A stretch of 64,000 nt of DNA from Metabacillus litoralis (GTDB taxonomy: Bacteria; Bacillota; Bacilli; Bacillales; Bacillaceae), in NCBI RefSeq assembly GCF_007994985.1, contig NZ_VOQF01000008.1, forward strand, positions 124,001 through 188,000. Direction: 5' to 3'. The position numbers and the translations under genes are program-made. Positions 6,081 through 23,988 of the stretch are shown piece after piece. Below the pieces are notes generated by a model, which was given only the letters and a program-made list of their open reading frames with translations, searched no databases and was not told the DNA's origin. Position 1 is the stretch's first letter; the number at the start of each line of letters is the position of its first letter.

Positions 6081-6334
6081 CATTGGAAATTTTTTACTTA
6101 TTCAGGTTATCCTCAAGACCCTCTTACTTTCTTTCAGTGTTTCATCAAAAAAATCCTTATGATTTCTTTATGATGCACTTCTCCAATATTCTATCAATCA
6201 CGATAATTTTCGACATTTAGAAAGTATTTGTTGATAAATTTACCAAGGTGCTTTATTATGTAATATAGAAGATTAATTCACTATATATTGACGAATTAAT
6301 TAAGAAAACAACTATATATTGTATAAACTAAGTT

Positions 6335-6490
6335 TTAGGCGCCTATGTGGCTGAAATGGGAATCTGGTGAAAATCCAGAGCTGTCCCCGCAACTGTAAAT
6401 GTGACGAACTGAGAAAACCACTGTACATATGTATGGGAAGGACTCGTAGTAGGATGAGCATAAGTCAGGAGACCTACCTACTACTTATGA
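6335..6490 (+). promoter_or_regulatory. cobalamin (B12) riboswitch aptamer
   Basis: Conserved cobalamin-riboswitch blocks occur in the right order: GGCGCC, the core GGGAATCTGGTGAAAATCC, then GCTGTCCCCGCAACTGTAA (about 6381-6397), and finally the B12 box GTCAGGAGACC at about 6463-6474. It occupies the leader of the ribonucleotide reductase operon 140 bases before the start codon. By the known behaviour of this RNA class, adenosylcobalamin binding should lower expression downstream. Placing it before a B12-independent class I reductase implies that another, B12-dependent reductase exists in this genome. Confidence 0.93.
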
Positions 6491-6524
6491 ATGTTTCAAT
6501 TTCTTCGGGGACTGAGAGGATGGG

Positions 6525-17088: not shown

Positions 17089-17742
17089 ATGGCTTGGGAA
17101 GTTGAAGAATTTGCTCGTTTTCTTCTTAATGGTGATGAAGATTCTGCCTGGGAAATCACAATAACAAATGTGAATCGTGCTGAAGGTAGAACCGAATTAT
17201 TCGAAGAATTAATCACGAAATCACTCCAACATATAGGGTATCTATGGGAAACAGATCAAATTACTGTTGCAGATGAGCATCTTGCCACTTCAACATGTGA
17301 ATATATTTTAGCAAGATTTCATAATTATATGAAAAGAGAACAAAAAATACGACAATTCTCAGAAAAGAAAGCCTTGTTTTTATGTTTAGAAAATGAACAA
17401 CATGATATTGGACTTAAAATGGCATCACAGCTATTTGAAGAATATGGTTGGAAAACACGACTATTAGGTGCAAACTTACCTCTAGAATATGCCTTAAAGT
17501 CAGCAAGTATTTGGGAACCACATGTGATTGGTCTTTCCTTTTCAATCTGGTACCATGCAGAGATTCTAGCAAACTACATAAAAGCACTTGAAGAGCTACC
17601 TCACAAACCAATAGTAATAGTAGGTGGAAGGTTATTATCAAACTATGATTTTTCCTCATACTGTTCTGACAAAACCCGATTGTTTCCATCTCTTATTGAA
17701 CTTAAAGCTTGGCTAATGGAACATTCAAAACAAGGAGTGTAA
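17089..17742 (+). CDS. CarH-type cobalamin-binding (putative light-sensing) protein without DNA-binding domain
   Basis: A 217-residue stand-alone B12-binding protein. Residues about 1-80 are a helical cap with Trp53, nine residues, then Glu63-His64, exactly the W-x9-E-H motif of the CarH/LitR adenosylcobalamin photoreceptors. Residues about 93-215 are a Rossmann B12 fold with Glu103-x-His105-x-x-Gly108 (ENEQHDIG), supplying the lower axial histidine, followed by IGLSFS and VVGGRLL. CarH proteins have a MerR-type DNA-binding domain before this module; here the protein starts directly at the cap. It is followed five bases later by a PAS/STAS gene, so the output is probably protein partner switching rather than DNA binding. 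Light sensing is an inference from the motif. Confidence 0.85.
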   Translation: MAWEVEEFARFLLNGDEDSAWEITITNVNRAEGRTELFEELITKSLQHIGYLWETDQITVADEHLATSTCEYILARFHNYMKREQKIRQFSEKKALFLCLENEQHDIGLKMASQLFEEYGWKTRLLGANLPLEYALKSASIWEPHVIGLSFSIWYHAEILANYIKALEELPHKPIVIVGGRLLSNYDFSSYCSDKTRLFPSLIELKAWLMEHSKQGV

Positions 17743-17747
17743 TTCTA

Positions 17748-18497
17748 ATGTCAGCAGTTAAATTTATCCCTGTTCCATATTTTTTAATTGATAAAGGACT
17801 TACGATATTACAGTGTTCAGATATTGCAATTGAAACTTTTGGGGATGCTACATTATTTTTAGATATCATTGATAGAGAAAGTAAGGATAAAGCAGAGCGC
17901 ATTCTTACTTCACATGAAACGAAAACAACCGAGTTAGTTATGAAAACAATTACCTCCCCATATTTCCTTTTTAAGTTGAAGGTTAATTGGGCAGATTCAG
18001 TTGGACATGTTATTTGTATCGAGCAGGATGACCGTATTCAAGAGCTAATTGAAGCTGTAAACAAGCATCGACTTCGTCTAGCAGAAACAAATTTTGAATT
18101 ACTTGAAAAAAAAGAGCAGCTTGAGACCTCTCTTGCATTAATTAATGAATTATCTGCACCTTATATAATCCTTACAAAAGGCATTGTCCTAATCCCACTT
18201 TATGGCCATTTAAATAAGGATTTAATTGATAGTAATAGTCTGCGAATTTTACAGCAAATTAATAACAATAGTGCAATAGTACGAATTTTATTTGATTTTC
18301 ATGGAATTGGAAATATTACAACAGAAGGAATAGTAGCATTACGGAACTTACTCACCCAAATAACACTTATGGGTGTTCTCCCTTATATCATTGGATTACA
18401 TCCAGATCATGCACAGCTCATTCATAAAAGTGGGATAAAAACAGAATCCTATTTTATGAGAAATATAAATGAGGCAATAAGGAAATTTATTGTTTGA
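17748..18497 (+). CDS. PAS-like/STAS (RsbR-type) signalling protein
   Basis: A 249-residue protein. Residues about 1-100 look PAS-like (FIPVPYFLIDKGLTILQCSD). A coiled-coil linker follows (HRLRLAETNFELLEKKEQLE), then a C-terminal STAS domain opening LSAPYIILTKGIVLIPLYGH, with the DFHGIGNITTEGIVALRNLL helix that in RsbR holds a phosphorylatable threonine. This is the layout of stressosome sensor proteins that feed the SigB partner-switching pathway. An ATG with GGAGTG upstream gives the start, five bases after the cobalamin-binding gene, so the two almost certainly work together. No RsbS/RsbT genes are nearby. Confidence 0.8.
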   Translation: MSAVKFIPVPYFLIDKGLTILQCSDIAIETFGDATLFLDIIDRESKDKAERILTSHETKTTELVMKTITSPYFLFKLKVNWADSVGHVICIEQDDRIQELIEAVNKHRLRLAETNFELLEKKEQLETSLALINELSAPYIILTKGIVLIPLYGHLNKDLIDSNSLRILQQINNNSAIVRILFDFHGIGNITTEGIVALRNLLTQITLMGVLPYIIGLHPDHAQLIHKSGIKTESYFMRNINEAIRKFIV

Positions 18498-18817: not shown

Positions 18818-19897
18818 TTATTCTCCTGAGTTTATATTAGTAGCTTCTTTAGAAAGCTTTTTCCTATCTGCAGCCCTAGGCGGTTCTTCAAGCCAACCAT
18901 TGCCGATAATAAGATTCATTCCTTCATTTGCATATTTTCCTATATCTGCTATGAGAATACCCATAATGGCATGTAAATCATGTCTCATCATCTTGGAGAC
19001 CGCTAATCCATAATTCGATATCCCAATTGTGTTTGCAAGTGAAGCATGATAAAGCATTAATTTATCCGAAAATGGTGCTGTTGTAGAATCACTTATATGC
19101 GCATCCATAGAAGTAGGAACTGGTAAATTATCACTGATCAAATACTTTCCTAGTTGTTTAATCTGAGTATCAGCTACCTTTGCTCCTTGCTGAAAATACT
19201 TACGTAACTTCTCAGATGATGCTACTTGACTAAATCCTAACATCAATGATTTCCCTAATATATTTGTATTGATATTTATTTGTAAATGCTTAATCTCTAG
19301 TGCTGTAAGAGGTCTGAATTTACCAGCAATCATTGAAATAAATGACTCCCGTTCAATGAAATTCACTTTTTTCGGATAAGGAATTGTAGGCGGCACCATA
19401 TTTGTCCCCTTAAGAAGCATTAAATGTAGACCCTTTTCAAATATAATAACAGTGTCATCTAAACACATCTTGAAGTAATCCACTATGTCTTGTCTGTATG
19501 AGCTCGATAGTGCACCACCATATGTTACTAGAGCGGCTCGTGACATTTCTACAACGTAAAAAATCATGAAGATATCACTAAACAATCTTGGAGAACCTCT
19601 CCTTACATCTTGGTCTCCAAATCCTACTGGAATAGCAATATTTTCTTTCTCATAAATCTCTTCCATCTTATTTAAATGTTTTTTCGCTGTTTTCAATGCA
19701 AATTCAAGATATTCTTTTATTTCATCATCTTTCACTACTTCAAGATGATGCTCGAAAATACAACAAGATAAAGAGTCTCCCAAATAGTTAGCAAATAAAT
19801 CGCCTAGCTCTGATGAAATTAACTTTTGATTTTGTTGATGCTCACTCACTTTCTCCATAACTTCTTTATCTCTATATGATGTTGTATTTGATTCCAT
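18818..19897 (-). CDS. DUF3231 family protein (tandem four-helix bundles)
   Basis: A 359-residue all-helical protein with two related halves: the first about residues 20-175 (ELGDLFANYLGDSLSCCIFEHHL), the second about 195-345 (SFISMIAGKFRPLTALEIKH ... LMLYHASLANTIGISNYGLA). This is the DUF3231 pattern, a ferritin-like family abundant in Bacillaceae and often linked to spores, with no proven biochemical role. The start ATG follows GGGAGG. No partner gene is obvious. Confidence 0.8.
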   Translation of the reverse strand: MESNTTSYRDKEVMEKVSEHQQNQKLISSELGDLFANYLGDSLSCCIFEHHLEVVKDDEIKEYLEFALKTAKKHLNKMEEIYEKENIAIPVGFGDQDVRRGSPRLFSDIFMIFYVVEMSRAALVTYGGALSSSYRQDIVDYFKMCLDDTVIIFEKGLHLMLLKGTNMVPPTIPYPKKVNFIERESFISMIAGKFRPLTALEIKHLQININTNILGKSLMLGFSQVASSEKLRKYFQQGAKVADTQIKQLGKYLISDNLPVPTSMDAHISDSTTAPFSDKLMLYHASLANTIGISNYGLAVSKMMRHDLHAIMGILIADIGKYANEGMNLIIGNGWLEEPPRAADRKKLSKEATNINSGE

Positions 19898-20096: not shown

Positions 20097-20744
20097 TTAA
20101 TTATCTTTCAAAACTGTATAAACAACTAATCGTTCTTCATGTGTTCCTTTTTCTCTATTAAATGATCCTGTGCAAGTAATAAGGTTTAGCTGACTTCGAT
20201 AAGAAAATCCAAAAACCTTATCTACAGGAGCAGATTCTGTTACATAGCTTTTCTTATCATAAACAACAAAGGTGAGAGATTTTCCATCTTTATCTGCTAC
20301 AATAATTTCATCACCTTTAGCAAGCTTTTCTAAGTGATAAAAAATAGCTGGACCTGTTTTGCTGTCAACATGACCAGCTAAAACTGCATTACCTTGCTCA
20401 CCAGGCATTACACCTTCTTTAAACCAACCAACTTGATTTATATCCTCTGGTACCCCCATTTGACCATTATCAAGTAAACCTACCTCTTCAATTTGAGCTT
20501 TTACATTAATTGCAGGAATCGTAATCTGGGCTGGTTTTATCTTTTCCCTTATATCCTTAATAATTGGATCATCGTTTTTCACATGAGTATTTTCAGTCTT
20601 CACTACAGACGAGGCTGGCTCCTCCGTCTTTTCAGCTTCATGCAAAACAGTCGAATCTTCCGTCTTGGATTTCTTGATAGAATCATTTTGCTGACACCCT
20701 GTAAAAACTACCAAGAAAACCAATGCATAGATTACACGCCACAT
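20097..20744 (-). CDS. class F sortase, lipoprotein-anchored
   Basis: A 215-residue transpeptidase. An N-terminal lipobox-type signal (FLVVFTGC) is followed by a charged linker, then the sortase barrel with the catalytic histidine in LAGHVDS, the cysteine in LITCTG and the arginine in EERLVVYT. It joins LPXTG-like proteins to cell-wall peptidoglycan. The ATG at 20744 is preferred because GAGGTG lies eight bases upstream; an in-frame ATG two codons earlier is only two bases from it. It follows its presumed substrate gene by 15 bases, and the ribosome binding site overlaps the substrate's stop region. The lipobox is unusual, since most sortases have a membrane helix instead. Confidence 0.88.
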   Translation of the reverse strand: MWRVIYALVFLVVFTGCQQNDSIKKSKTEDSTVLHEAEKTEEPASSVVKTENTHVKNDDPIIKDIREKIKPAQITIPAINVKAQIEEVGLLDNGQMGVPEDINQVGWFKEGVMPGEQGNAVLAGHVDSKTGPAIFYHLEKLAKGDEIIVADKDGKSLTFVVYDKKSYVTESAPVDKVFGFSYRSQLNLITCTGSFNREKGTHEERLVVYTVLKDN

Positions 20745-20759
20745 TTGCATTTCACCTCA

Positions 20760-22115
20760 TTAGTTTTGTTGAAGTTTTTTACGAATGACTAAGCCCATAC
20801 TAGCGAAAATGGCCATAATTAACCCAAAGACAATATAATTCCCCATCATACTATCATCTGTGCCACCCATACCAGTTTTCGGCATTTCGTCAGGCATCAT
20901 TGATGTGAACTTTTCTGGAAATTGATCAACAAATGCTCCTGATAATCCTTTAGCAGGATTTAACATATGTCCGTATGCTTCTCTAATTGAATCATATGCT
21001 TTTTCATAATCACCAGCAACATAGAAGTCAAAAGCCGCAATTAGCTGTTCAACATGCATTTGTAAACCATCTGCAAGAGCATCTGATTTTAAGCGCCCAT
21101 CTGTTGCAGTTTCAAGGAATTTTGAGAATTCTGCACGATAGCCATCTAGATTCTCTAATGCCTCTTTCTTAGCATTTTCATCATTTGCTCCTGTTGCTTT
21201 TACATAATCAACGAAGAAGCCGATGTGATTTGACCACATTGTTTTAAATTGTTCGCCAGCTTCATCTCCATACACAGAAGCAATTGCTGCAGTTAAATCC
21301 TCTGTATTAGCATTTAATGCACCTGCTGCAGCTTCAAAATCCTCTGCACCATCAGCACCTTGTTGCATTGCTACGACTGCTAGCCCTGCATGCTCTGTTA
21401 ATAAATGATTTAATGTAGCTCTCAAATCTACAGCAGGTGTTACTGCTTTTGTTGTTTCAAATTTCTCTGGAAACTGATCTGTAATAGCGTTAGATAGTCC
21501 TTTTGCTACCATATGCATGTGGTGGATAGCTTCTCTTTCATATTCATACGCTTTATTAAAATCCTTTGCTAAATAGCTATCAAAAGCTCCTACTAGTTGA
21601 TTTACATGCATTTGTAATCCTTCAGCAAGACCACTTGCTTCTAACCGCTCACCTGTTGCTGTTTCTAAGAATTGTGAAAATTTTTCACGGTAAGTATCTA
21701 AATTATTAAGTGCTTCTTCCTTTTTCGTTTCATCATTTTCTGCTGTTGCTGTTACATAATCAACGAAAAATCCGATATGTTCCTCCCACATTTGTTTAAA
21801 TTGTTGTCCTGCCTCATCACCATAAACAGATGTAATTGCGTTTGATAAGTCAACTGTGTTTTCATTTAATGCCCCAACAGATGCTTCAAAGTCCTTTGCA
21901 CCTAATGCTCCGTTTCTCATTACCTCTACAGCTAAGTAAGCATGCTCACTAAGTAAATGACCTAATGTTGAGCGAAGCTCTGCAGCAGGAGTAGCTACTG
22001 CCTCACTACCACTCATTTTAGTATGGTTTACATGATCATGTGCAAAAGCTCCTTGGACTGGTACTAGTAACGATAAGCTTAATGGAATTGCTAATAAAGA
22101 TTTGTTAAGTTTCAT
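20760..22115 (-). CDS. sortase substrate with duplicated helical domain and MPKTG anchor
   Basis: A 451-residue secreted protein: a signal peptide ending near GAFAHDH, two ~190-residue helical repeats (ELRSTLGHLLSEHAYLAVEV and DLRATLNHLLTEHAGLAVVA open them, each closing with KGLS then QFPEKF), and a C-terminal MPKTG, a hydrophobic helix and KKLQQN. The MPKTG-helix-basic tail is a cell-wall sorting signal related to LPXTG. Histidine and methionine clusters (HDHVNHTKM, HHMHM) could bind metal, but this is speculative. The ATG at 22115 has AAAGGGGA upstream. The class F sortase directly follows, and an ECF sigma/anti-sigma pair lies upstream. Confidence 0.85.
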   Translation of the reverse strand: MKLNKSLLAIPLSLSLLVPVQGAFAHDHVNHTKMSGSEAVATPAAELRSTLGHLLSEHAYLAVEVMRNGALGAKDFEASVGALNENTVDLSNAITSVYGDEAGQQFKQMWEEHIGFFVDYVTATAENDETKKEEALNNLDTYREKFSQFLETATGERLEASGLAEGLQMHVNQLVGAFDSYLAKDFNKAYEYEREAIHHMHMVAKGLSNAITDQFPEKFETTKAVTPAVDLRATLNHLLTEHAGLAVVAMQQGADGAEDFEAAAGALNANTEDLTAAIASVYGDEAGEQFKTMWSNHIGFFVDYVKATGANDENAKKEALENLDGYRAEFSKFLETATDGRLKSDALADGLQMHVEQLIAAFDFYVAGDYEKAYDSIREAYGHMLNPAKGLSGAFVDQFPEKFTSMMPDEMPKTGMGGTDDSMMGNYIVFGLIMAIFASMGLVIRKKLQQN

Positions 22116-22253
22116 TTTAATTTCCCCTTTCACGTTTTCTATTAAGCTAACGAACTAGTTTTTCGTTTGGATCACTTTTTTCTAAAATAATTTTTAATAA
22201 ATTTATTTTTCGAAATGGCTATGTTAAAGGTTAATATTGATTTTTAGCACATT

Positions 22254-22679: not shown

Positions 22680-23432
22680 TTATATTCCACCCGCTAGAAC
22701 AACTTTTCCTTCTGGTAACGGTAAATTGGCTTCTTTTTCAACAGTGATCGCTACTGTATCCCAATTACCTTCTAACTCTTTTAATGAATAAGATAACGTT
22801 CCCTGACCAGATTCATTCGGTTCAAAAGCACCAGCAGGATAAGGTTTTTCTCCTTCAATCACCCAAACCTGATATACCTCTTCATCACTTAGCTTAGGTA
22901 AATTGGATGCTTGTAGTAATAGCGATGCTTCATTGCCAGAAGATAAAAGTGAAACAATTGCAACGGCTTCGATACTTTCATCAACAGGTAATAAAGTTAC
23001 TTGTGAAGAAGGCTTTATTTCAGCTATCTCAGATTGGATTTGTTGATTTTCTTTATTCTCACTATATAAATAGGCATTTGTTATAAGAGAAAGTATTAAT
23101 GCTGCAGCTAGTGATGGTAATACAAATCTTGGTGTTTTTCGTTTATTTGGTTGAGCAATCCCTATTTGTTGATTATTTTCACTTTCATTATACTGAGGTT
23201 CATCTTCTTTCTCTTCTTTGAAAATCTCATCAAATATTCGTGCTTTCATATCTTTTGGTACATCAACCGCTTCAGAAAGGTAAGGTAAATCTTCCGTTAA
23301 ACTAGTTATCTCTTCTAATTCATTTTGACACTCTGCACATGTTTGTAAATGGAGTTCAAAAAGTGCCATTTCCTCATCTGTAAGTGTTGAATTAAAATAG
23401 TCAATTAGCTGATAACACTTTTCGTTACTCAT
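22680..23432 (-). CDS. anti-sigma factor, zinc-finger (zf-HC2) with RskA-like C-terminal domain
   Basis: A 250-residue membrane anti-sigma factor. The N-terminal anti-sigma domain carries the zinc motif H-x3-C-x2-C (HLQTCAEC). A single membrane helix near 105-122 (FVLPSLAAALILSLITNAYL) is followed by an extracytoplasmic RskA-type domain (LSDEEVYQVWVIEGEKPYPA). It overlaps the ECF sigma gene by 8 bases, so the pair is co-translated. It should hold the sigma factor inactive until an envelope signal triggers its proteolysis. Confidence 0.9.
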   Translation of the reverse strand: MSNEKCYQLIDYFNSTLTDEEMALFELHLQTCAECQNELEEITSLTEDLPYLSEAVDVPKDMKARIFDEIFKEEKEDEPQYNESENNQQIGIAQPNKRKTPRFVLPSLAAALILSLITNAYLYSENKENQQIQSEIAEIKPSSQVTLLPVDESIEAVAIVSLLSSGNEASLLLQASNLPKLSDEEVYQVWVIEGEKPYPAGAFEPNESGQGTLSYSLKELEGNWDTVAITVEKEANLPLPEGKVVLAGGI

Positions 23433-23988
23433 TTGATGTCCCTCCTTCCTGAGCTAACATTTTCCGTAAATGCTTTAATGCGATTCGAATTCTGCCTTTT
23501 ACTGTTCCTAAAGGTAATTCACACTGATTTGCGATCTTTTGTTGGCTCAAGCCTTTGAAATAAAAGAGATTAATTATTTGTTGTTGATCTTCCTTAAGGC
23601 TGTTCATTGCTCGTTGTATGTTAATTTTTTGTTCATTCCATTCTATCTTATCTTCCACCGAATCTTCATCCTGAACAAGTGAATCTTTATCAATTATTTC
23701 TTCGTGAGTATGTCGTTTCCTTTTTCGTATCTCATCAATTGCTTTATTTCTTGTAATCGTTAATAGCCATGAAGATAATTTACCTTTACTTTCATCATAG
23801 ACGTTTGTACCATTCCAAAGCTTCAGAAAAACATCCTGTACAACTTCCTCTGTTAAAGAAGCATCATTTGTTAGTCGATACGCAAAGGAATAAAGCAGCT
23901 TTTCATAACGATCATATAATATTTCAAAAGCAATGCGATCTTTATTTATAGCCTTATTATATAATGATGCATCATCATTTTGGATCAT
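23425..23988 (-). CDS. ECF sigma factor (SigK/RskA-type pair)
   Basis: A 187-residue ECF sigma factor: region 2 (FEILYDRYEKLLYSFAYRLT ... EVVQDVFLKLWNG) and region 4 (QQQIINLFYFKGLSQQKIAN then LGTVKGRIRIALKHLRK). Its stop overlaps the anti-sigma start, a classic arrangement for extracytoplasmic stress response. The sortase/substrate operon 1.3 kb downstream on the same strand is a candidate target, by position only. No ECF promoter could be confirmed upstream. Confidence 0.92.
   Translation of the reverse strand: MIQNDDASLYNKAINKDRIAFEILYDRYEKLLYSFAYRLTNDASLTEEVVQDVFLKLWNGTNVYDESKGKLSSWLLTITRNKAIDEIRKRKRHTHEEIIDKDSLVQDEDSVEDKIEWNEQKINIQRAMNSLKEDQQQIINLFYFKGLSQQKIANQCELPLGTVKGRIRIALKHLRKMLAQEGGTSNE

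Follow-up and report, generated by a model that had tools for sequence, protein, structure and literature searches.

What does a stand-alone B12-binding protein do beside a gene for a STAS-domain protein, and by what route might a signal pass from one to the other? The question is raised by two adjoining genes in the window, i.e. the whole 64,000-nucleotide stretch of Metabacillus DNA that was analysed. A first-pass annotation had read them as a CarH-type cobalamin sensor that lacks a DNA-binding domain and is coupled to an RsbR-like PAS-STAS protein of the stressosome. The ATG of the second gene (17748) lies five bases past the stop of the first. The nearest named loci are those of Metabacillus crassostreae and M. 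litoralis, whose B12 proteins are 94% and 85% identical, respectively, to that of the window. The features of the pair are as follows.

17089..17742, + strand: gene 1, a stand-alone B12-binding protein of 217 aa with a photocobilin/CarH-type cap and a Rossmann domain (Pfam, NCBIfam, PDB search, alignment)
17245..17280, + strand: W53-x9-E63-H64 cap motif (sequence and alignment; residue roles from PMC10979010 and PMC11796333)
17395..17412, + strand: E103-x-H105-x-x-G108 lower axial ligand motif (sequence, alignment)
17467..17481, + strand: GxxxP motif (G127-P131) of light-responsive B12 domains (sequence, alignment)
17748..18497, + strand: gene 2, a PAS-coiled coil-STAS protein (P0001) of 249 aa (NCBIfam, AlphaFold2, Foldseek)
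17769..18032, + strand: predicted PAS-like domain, about residues 8-95 (AlphaFold2 model, Foldseek; the region matches PAS-histidine kinase partners)
18033..18152, + strand: predicted signalling helix or coiled coil, residues 96-135 (AlphaFold2 model)
18159..18488, + strand: STAS domain, residues 138-247 (Pfam, NCBIfam, Foldseek)
18321-18323, + strand: codon of T192 in the STAS domain (aligned with the RsbR Thr)

The first protein matches the Pfam families B12-binding_2 (E 2.2e-10) and B12-binding (E 1.1e-12), and Pfam finds neither a MerR nor any other DNA-binding domain in it. The cap without a DNA-binding domain that was described at first pass is thus borne out. The protein has the motifs G50-x-x-W53, E63-H64, E103-x-H105-x-x-G108 and G127-x3-P131. 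These are all four signatures of light-responsive B12 domains in the set given in PMC11796333, except that the histidine motif reads E-x-H here and GxxH there. The Trp and Glu-His residues belong to the adenosyl pocket in CarH and in the photocobilins, according to PMC10979010 and PMC11796333.

The proposed kinship with CarH holds for the cap and ligand motifs (W-x9-EH and E-x-H-x-x-G), but the nearest solved relatives are others. The best PDB matches are 8jbs, 8j2w and 8j2x, which we take to be photocobilin chains, with E-values of 4e-9 to 6e-9 versus 0.012 for CarH. The window protein carries the photocobilin signature of GxxW, EH, ligand His and GxxxP, and it differs from CarH in the absence of the MerR domain. 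In a phylogenetic tree its group falls outside the MerR/CarH clade, apart from the genome's own MerR-B12 protein, with deep branches that are weak. The latter, a classical CarH-type protein, is encoded at L084:1488-2411.

The second protein shows the arrangement of sensor domain, linker helix and STAS domain that is typical of RsbR/YtvA-type proteins. Its STAS match lies slightly under the Pfam cut-off (22.2 versus 22.6 bits), and the NCBIfam YtvA_fam model matches residues 120-233 with E 2e-11, far below the model's own cut-off. No PAS domain was detected in gene 2 by Pfam or NCBIfam; the predicted PAS-coil-STAS layout rests on an AlphaFold2 model (pLDDT 83.6, pTM 0.49) and on Foldseek, which places full-length YtvA (2mwg, E 2.5e-11) first and the Listeria RsbR stressosome second. 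The neighbour is therefore of the YtvA/RsbR type, as had been noted. By eye, the PAS-like domain has no NCRFLQ motif, which we take to be the LOV motif, and so it is not a LOV domain. This sets it apart from YtvA, which a review (PMC7522486) counts among the stressosome proteins and describes as having a LOV sensor, and the signal would have to arrive in trans from the B12 protein.

A threonine at the GxxxxxT position had also been pointed out. It is present (G186...T192) and aligns with the Thr of Listeria RsbR, but as a conserved phospho-site it fails, the column being Thr in only 3 of 19 aligned orthologues. RsbR-like phosphorylation of T192 was rejected on these counts as a general feature. 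In the alignment YtvA has Glu at the RsbR phospho-Thr position. Since a phosphorylatable Thr is not conserved, gene 2 would be expected to behave like YtvA rather than like RsbRA.

The two genes keep company widely. In a family sample of 80 genomes, B12 relatives (E <= 1e-20) are found in 27 and PAS-STAS relatives (E <= 1e-8) in 29, paralogues and partial matches included. Wherever there is a close B12 orthologue (E <= 1e-50), coordinates place a PAS-STAS gene next to it (23/23 genomes), with the PAS-STAS open reading frame split in two frames in G053 and G072. The co-occurrence that the first-pass annotation had proposed to look for across Bacillaceae is conserved, but its limits were drawn too narrowly: the pair is common across the order, well outside Bacillaceae in the strict sense, and histidine kinase genes, too, are found behind this sensor. 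Genus g2 yielded no B12 gene at the search threshold in 44 sampled genomes, and G065, without a B12 match, retains PAS-STAS as broken remnants.

Among the 82 distinct B12 proteins at 121 loci scanned, 58 are paired with PAS-STAS, and all 58 of these have both the EH and the ligand His motifs; GxxxP is found in 54. Compared with M. litoralis, dN/dS is 0.20 and 0.19 for the pair, the control gene YitT being far more constrained (0.02). Because of the motif counts, the adjacency and these ratios, the pair is more than a chance neighbourhood. Split frames were seen at a few loci. Frameshifts interrupt PAS-STAS in the nearest relative (L005/L012) and in G072 (L027), and the B12 open reading frame is split in G131 and G130 (L120, L207); decay or sequencing error are both conceivable causes.

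The coupling of two genes is real, but the system usually has four. Two extra genes lie upstream of the pair in Cytobacillus firmus (L009), a Bacillus (L010) and Jeotgalibacillus (L011). One encodes a 101-aa ABM-domain protein (PF03992) and the other a protein of about 121 aa, here called the globin, which alone matches no Pfam family significantly. The operon order is ABM-type monooxygenase, globin of about 120 aa, B12 protein, PAS-STAS. Sixty loci of the order were picked around globin or B12 matches, one or two per genus and not at random; the strictly contiguous four-gene order is present in 25 of them, one per genus (25 genera), and the remainder comprise 18 with ABM-globin alone, 1 with ABM-globin-B12 and 17 without the ABM-globin pair. 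Five further loci have the full operon (the three above, L043 and L044). The ABM and globin genes overlap by 4 bases in 65 of 78 globin open reading frames, a redundant set.

In most Metabacillus, the window's genome included, the globin is unlinked to the pair. Here the ABM and globin genes are on another contig (C45, L041:4492-5183; the window is on C74), at a site 480 kb into its 586 kb. The globin nevertheless tracks the B12 gene. Among the 80 family genomes, the 23 that encode it are precisely those with a close B12 orthologue; the four whose only B12 copy is more distant (G045, G048, G050, G079) lack it. A search of 397 genomes of the order finds the globin in 161 (E <= 1e-6) and the B12 gene in 176 (E <= 1e-25): 152 genomes have both, 9 the globin only, 24 the B12 gene only (24/176 B12 genomes without a detected globin) and 212 neither. 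The association has a Fisher p of 7e-71 with kinship ignored.

What kind of protein the globin is was approached by profile and fold, which were informative; single-sequence PDB and Pfam searches gave nothing useful. An alignment of 20 members (A1) has C36, D39, N40, H42, H43, W65, G74 and M75 invariant. The best PDB match of the profile is phycocyanin alpha, with a weak E of 0.0097, aligned across its Cys motif; photocobilin chains score only E 1 to 1.9 and are outranked by some chains that are clearly unrelated. Pfam Phycobilisome is matched by 7 of the 20 members (best E 4.3e-5). The predicted model has five helices (pLDDT 96), and 49 of the 50 Foldseek matches listed are phycobiliproteins, smURFP or ApcE, with modest E-values (best 7.8e-3, none below 0.001 among the matches listed). 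The bilin motif is CXRD in phycobiliproteins and CXQD in photoglobins, as given in PMC10151467, and here it is mostly CxED. By hand tally the Cys of this CxxD motif is kept in 57 of 72 distinct globins and is Thr or Ala in 15. Motif and fold agree in tentatively suggesting a phycobilin-like globin; sequence scores are weak to moderate. Outside the order, the globin profile picks out, in 8 of 398 genomes of the phylum, proteins of about 360 aa that join globin and B12 domain in one chain, as photocobilins do; one of these (L180) has an ABM gene just upstream.

The ABM proteins have Trp in 62 of 66 and His in all 66, and Ser where IsdI has Asn in the alignment. Asn, Trp and His are what we take to be the catalytic triad of IsdG-type heme monooxygenases, the Asn of IsdI presumably being catalytic, and so this triad is incomplete here.

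The gene that follows the B12 gene varies. Next to the 82 distinct B12 proteins there are, besides the 58 PAS-STAS genes, 9 for PAS-histidine kinases, 7 for short PAS proteins, two of which are frameshifted PAS-STAS, and 8 for none of these. Two of the last group (L162, L166) have a GGDEF protein close by, with a PAS match in L162 only. Further loci from 31 genomes add 14 PAS-STAS, 3 PAS-kinase and 3 short-PAS neighbours. Since the PAS region is common to the STAS and the kinase partners, it is the likely docking site. Some individual cases are of interest in themselves. The GGDEF proteins (L162:4786-5682, L166:2528-3436) adjoin B12-ABM-globin genes and recall the diguanylate cyclase photocobilin. 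A second B12 protein of the window's genome (L042:5307-6821) has a 213-aa PAS-like partner without a STAS or kinase domain. Three kinase-paired B12 copies of genus g3 (L035, L036, L047) have Tyr for the His of EH and are without GxxxP; perhaps they no longer bind adenosylcobalamin.

How might these parts work together? We propose that the pair supplies the B12 component and the output component of a split photocobilin, which acts via a PAS adaptor and, in this genome, on the SigB stressosome; we give this proposal an even chance of being right. The 217-aa protein would bind adenosylcobalamin base-off, with His105 below and Trp53 and Glu63-His64 around the adenosyl group. The ABM monooxygenase encoded next to the globin elsewhere in this genome may make bilin from heme, and the separate globin, carrying bilin, would dock on the B12 protein and widen the usable light. 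Light would break the Co-C bond and alter the assembly of the B12 protein, and PAS-STAS would sense this alteration through its PAS domain. The PAS-STAS protein would sit in the RsbR/RsbS stressosome like YtvA and let RsbT go, whereupon RsbU, RsbV and RsbW would release SigB. PAS would thus be a common adaptor, leading to the stressosome when fused to STAS and to a two-component path when fused to a histidine kinase.

The state reached after light would probably differ from that of CarH, which ends as bis-His. The residue after the Trp in CarH is, we assume, His132; here it is Glu54, invariant in 25 of 25 aligned rows (alignment A3), and a bis-His end state is therefore not expected. A photocobilin ends with water-ligated cobalamin (PMC10979010) and by analogy would be the better guide.

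The STAS or kinase output would be unchanged if the module sensed not light but B12 supply or redox/oxidative stress, the signal being loss of adenosylcobalamin by starvation, or turnover of heme or bilin by the ABM enzyme and the globin. The hosts are non-phototrophs, a cobalamin riboswitch in the same window indicates that the cell monitors B12, and an ABM/IsdG-like enzyme as a steady partner fits heme or oxidant sensing; but the residues conserved are exactly those of the adenosyl pocket used by light cleavage in CarH and photocobilins, and a conserved phycobilin-like globin would be needless for a sensor of B12 level. We consider such a sensor unlikely, though it is the strongest competitor of the split photocobilin.

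For the split photocobilin, the proposed target is at hand. The window's genome has an intact rsbR-rsbS-rsbT-rsbU-rsbV-rsbW-sigB-rsbX row (L081), its rsb genes being assigned by eye from sequence features and its SigB scoring above the NCBIfam TIGR02941 cut-off, so that the partners RsbR, RsbS and RsbT are present. It should be pointed out that the B12/PAS-STAS pair is not near sigB. The presence of SigB was discarded as a discriminating test, as it is found in 79 of 80 family genomes, and RsbS was used instead. RsbS occurs in 310 of 397 genomes of the order; among the 176 that have the B12 gene it is found in 171, and among the other 221 in 139. On a hand-assembled list of 55 inspected PAS-STAS genomes all 55 have RsbS, versus 1 of 5 inspected genomes with only a PAS-kinase seen at the B12 locus; these counts, uncorrected for kinship, fit a need of PAS-STAS for the stressosome. 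The four PAS-kinase genomes that lack RsbS belong to one family (f20) and so represent few independent events, PAS-STAS having been searched at the locus only. A genome may also have both RsbS and a kinase partner, as seen in G128 and genus g3. In G180, the fifth B12 genome lacking RsbS, the globin/B12 stretch looks broken, and the 3.6-kb locus contains no PAS-STAS.

These counts also bear on the possibility that B12 protein and bilin globin form a photosensor whose PAS-STAS partner works outside the stressosome, e.g. on another anti-sigma factor or a kinase-like ATPase. The RsbR-type Thr site is not conserved, and kinase and GGDEF partners indicate that the output can vary. With YtvA and the Listeria stressosome as the top folds for PAS-STAS, and RsbS in 55/55 of its inspected genomes versus 310/397 overall, we regard this as quite improbable. 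That gene 1 belongs to a methyltransferase system as its corrinoid protein, or that the two genes adjoin by mere chance, is very hard to credit: the NCBIfam similarity to the corrinoid protein MtgC is weak (E 2.2e-5) and is bettered by the CarH model (E 1.6e-10, itself far under that model's cut-off), the PAS partner recurs across the order, and a Pfam scan of window genes that flank the pair finds no corrinoid methyltransferase. The corrinoid role was rejected on flanking genes and motif comparison.

Several known systems come close to the split photocobilin proposed here. The photocobilins SasPcob and AbDPcob, the subject of PMC10979010, have in common with it a B12 domain with the Trp, Glu-His and His motifs and a bilin-type globin. 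They differ in that B12 domain and globin are one chain and that the photocobilin globin is without the covalent Cys; in the present system B12 protein and globin each have a gene, an ABM gene accompanies them, and the output lies in a further protein, PAS-STAS. Predicted interactions of SasPcob include STAS, SpoIIE and PP2C-like proteins (PMC10979010). The type 2 bilin biosynthesis-associated globins (BBAG-2; PMC10151467) are likewise stand-alone globins with a separate B12-binding protein in one cluster, which is linked to heme oxygenase, and biliverdin binding has been shown. That cluster carries a bilin reductase, whereas the Bacillales operon carries the ABM gene and a PAS output. A word search of the main text of PMC10151467 found no mention of Bacill, Firmicutes, Bacillota or STAS. 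Published work thus already includes split B12/globin clusters as well as STAS contacts predicted for a photocobilin. In the open-licence literature searched, no ABM-globin-B12-PAS-STAS operon and no coupling of CarH or photocobilin to the stressosome was found in Bacillales; the photoglobin study of Schneider et al. (2022), outside that scope, may show similar neighbourhoods.

A broader reading, which we offer tentatively and with the balance somewhat against it, is that a two-pigment photoreceptor in trans, made of the B12 protein and a phycobilin-like globin, is established in non-photosynthetic Bacillales, where one PAS adaptor connects it to different signalling machines. In species with a stressosome it would supply a green-to-red stress input, the counterpart of YtvA for blue light. 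If so, many ordinary soil and marine Bacillales would use vitamin B12 and a phycobiliprotein relative to sense light over an extended range of colours, and the stressosome would be signalled in trans by a photoreceptor that is a protein apart. This would also explain a use for stand-alone B12 proteins in Bacillales, offer separable optogenetic parts and provide a testable case of one sensor that switches output via what follows the PAS domain.

Other features of the window may be mentioned. The cobalamin riboswitch (6320-6495, + strand, 111.7 bits) lies ahead of two genes for a class I ribonucleotide reductase (genes to 10030), and likely serves B12-dependent repression of this B12-independent enzyme; an Rfam scan at the gathering threshold finds no riboswitch at the B12/PAS-STAS pair itself. 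A DUF3231 protein gene (18818-19897, - strand) is convergent beside the pair, and one is also found 3' of the Cytobacillus firmus cassette (L009:7495-8496), which may be coincidence. At 20097-22133 (- strand) there are genes for a sortase-domain protein and a 457-aa two-repeat protein with an MPKTG-like anchor and a hydrophobic tail, probably a dedicated sortase and its substrate. These are followed at 22680-23988 (- strand) by an ECF-type sigma factor and an RskA-like anti-sigma factor.
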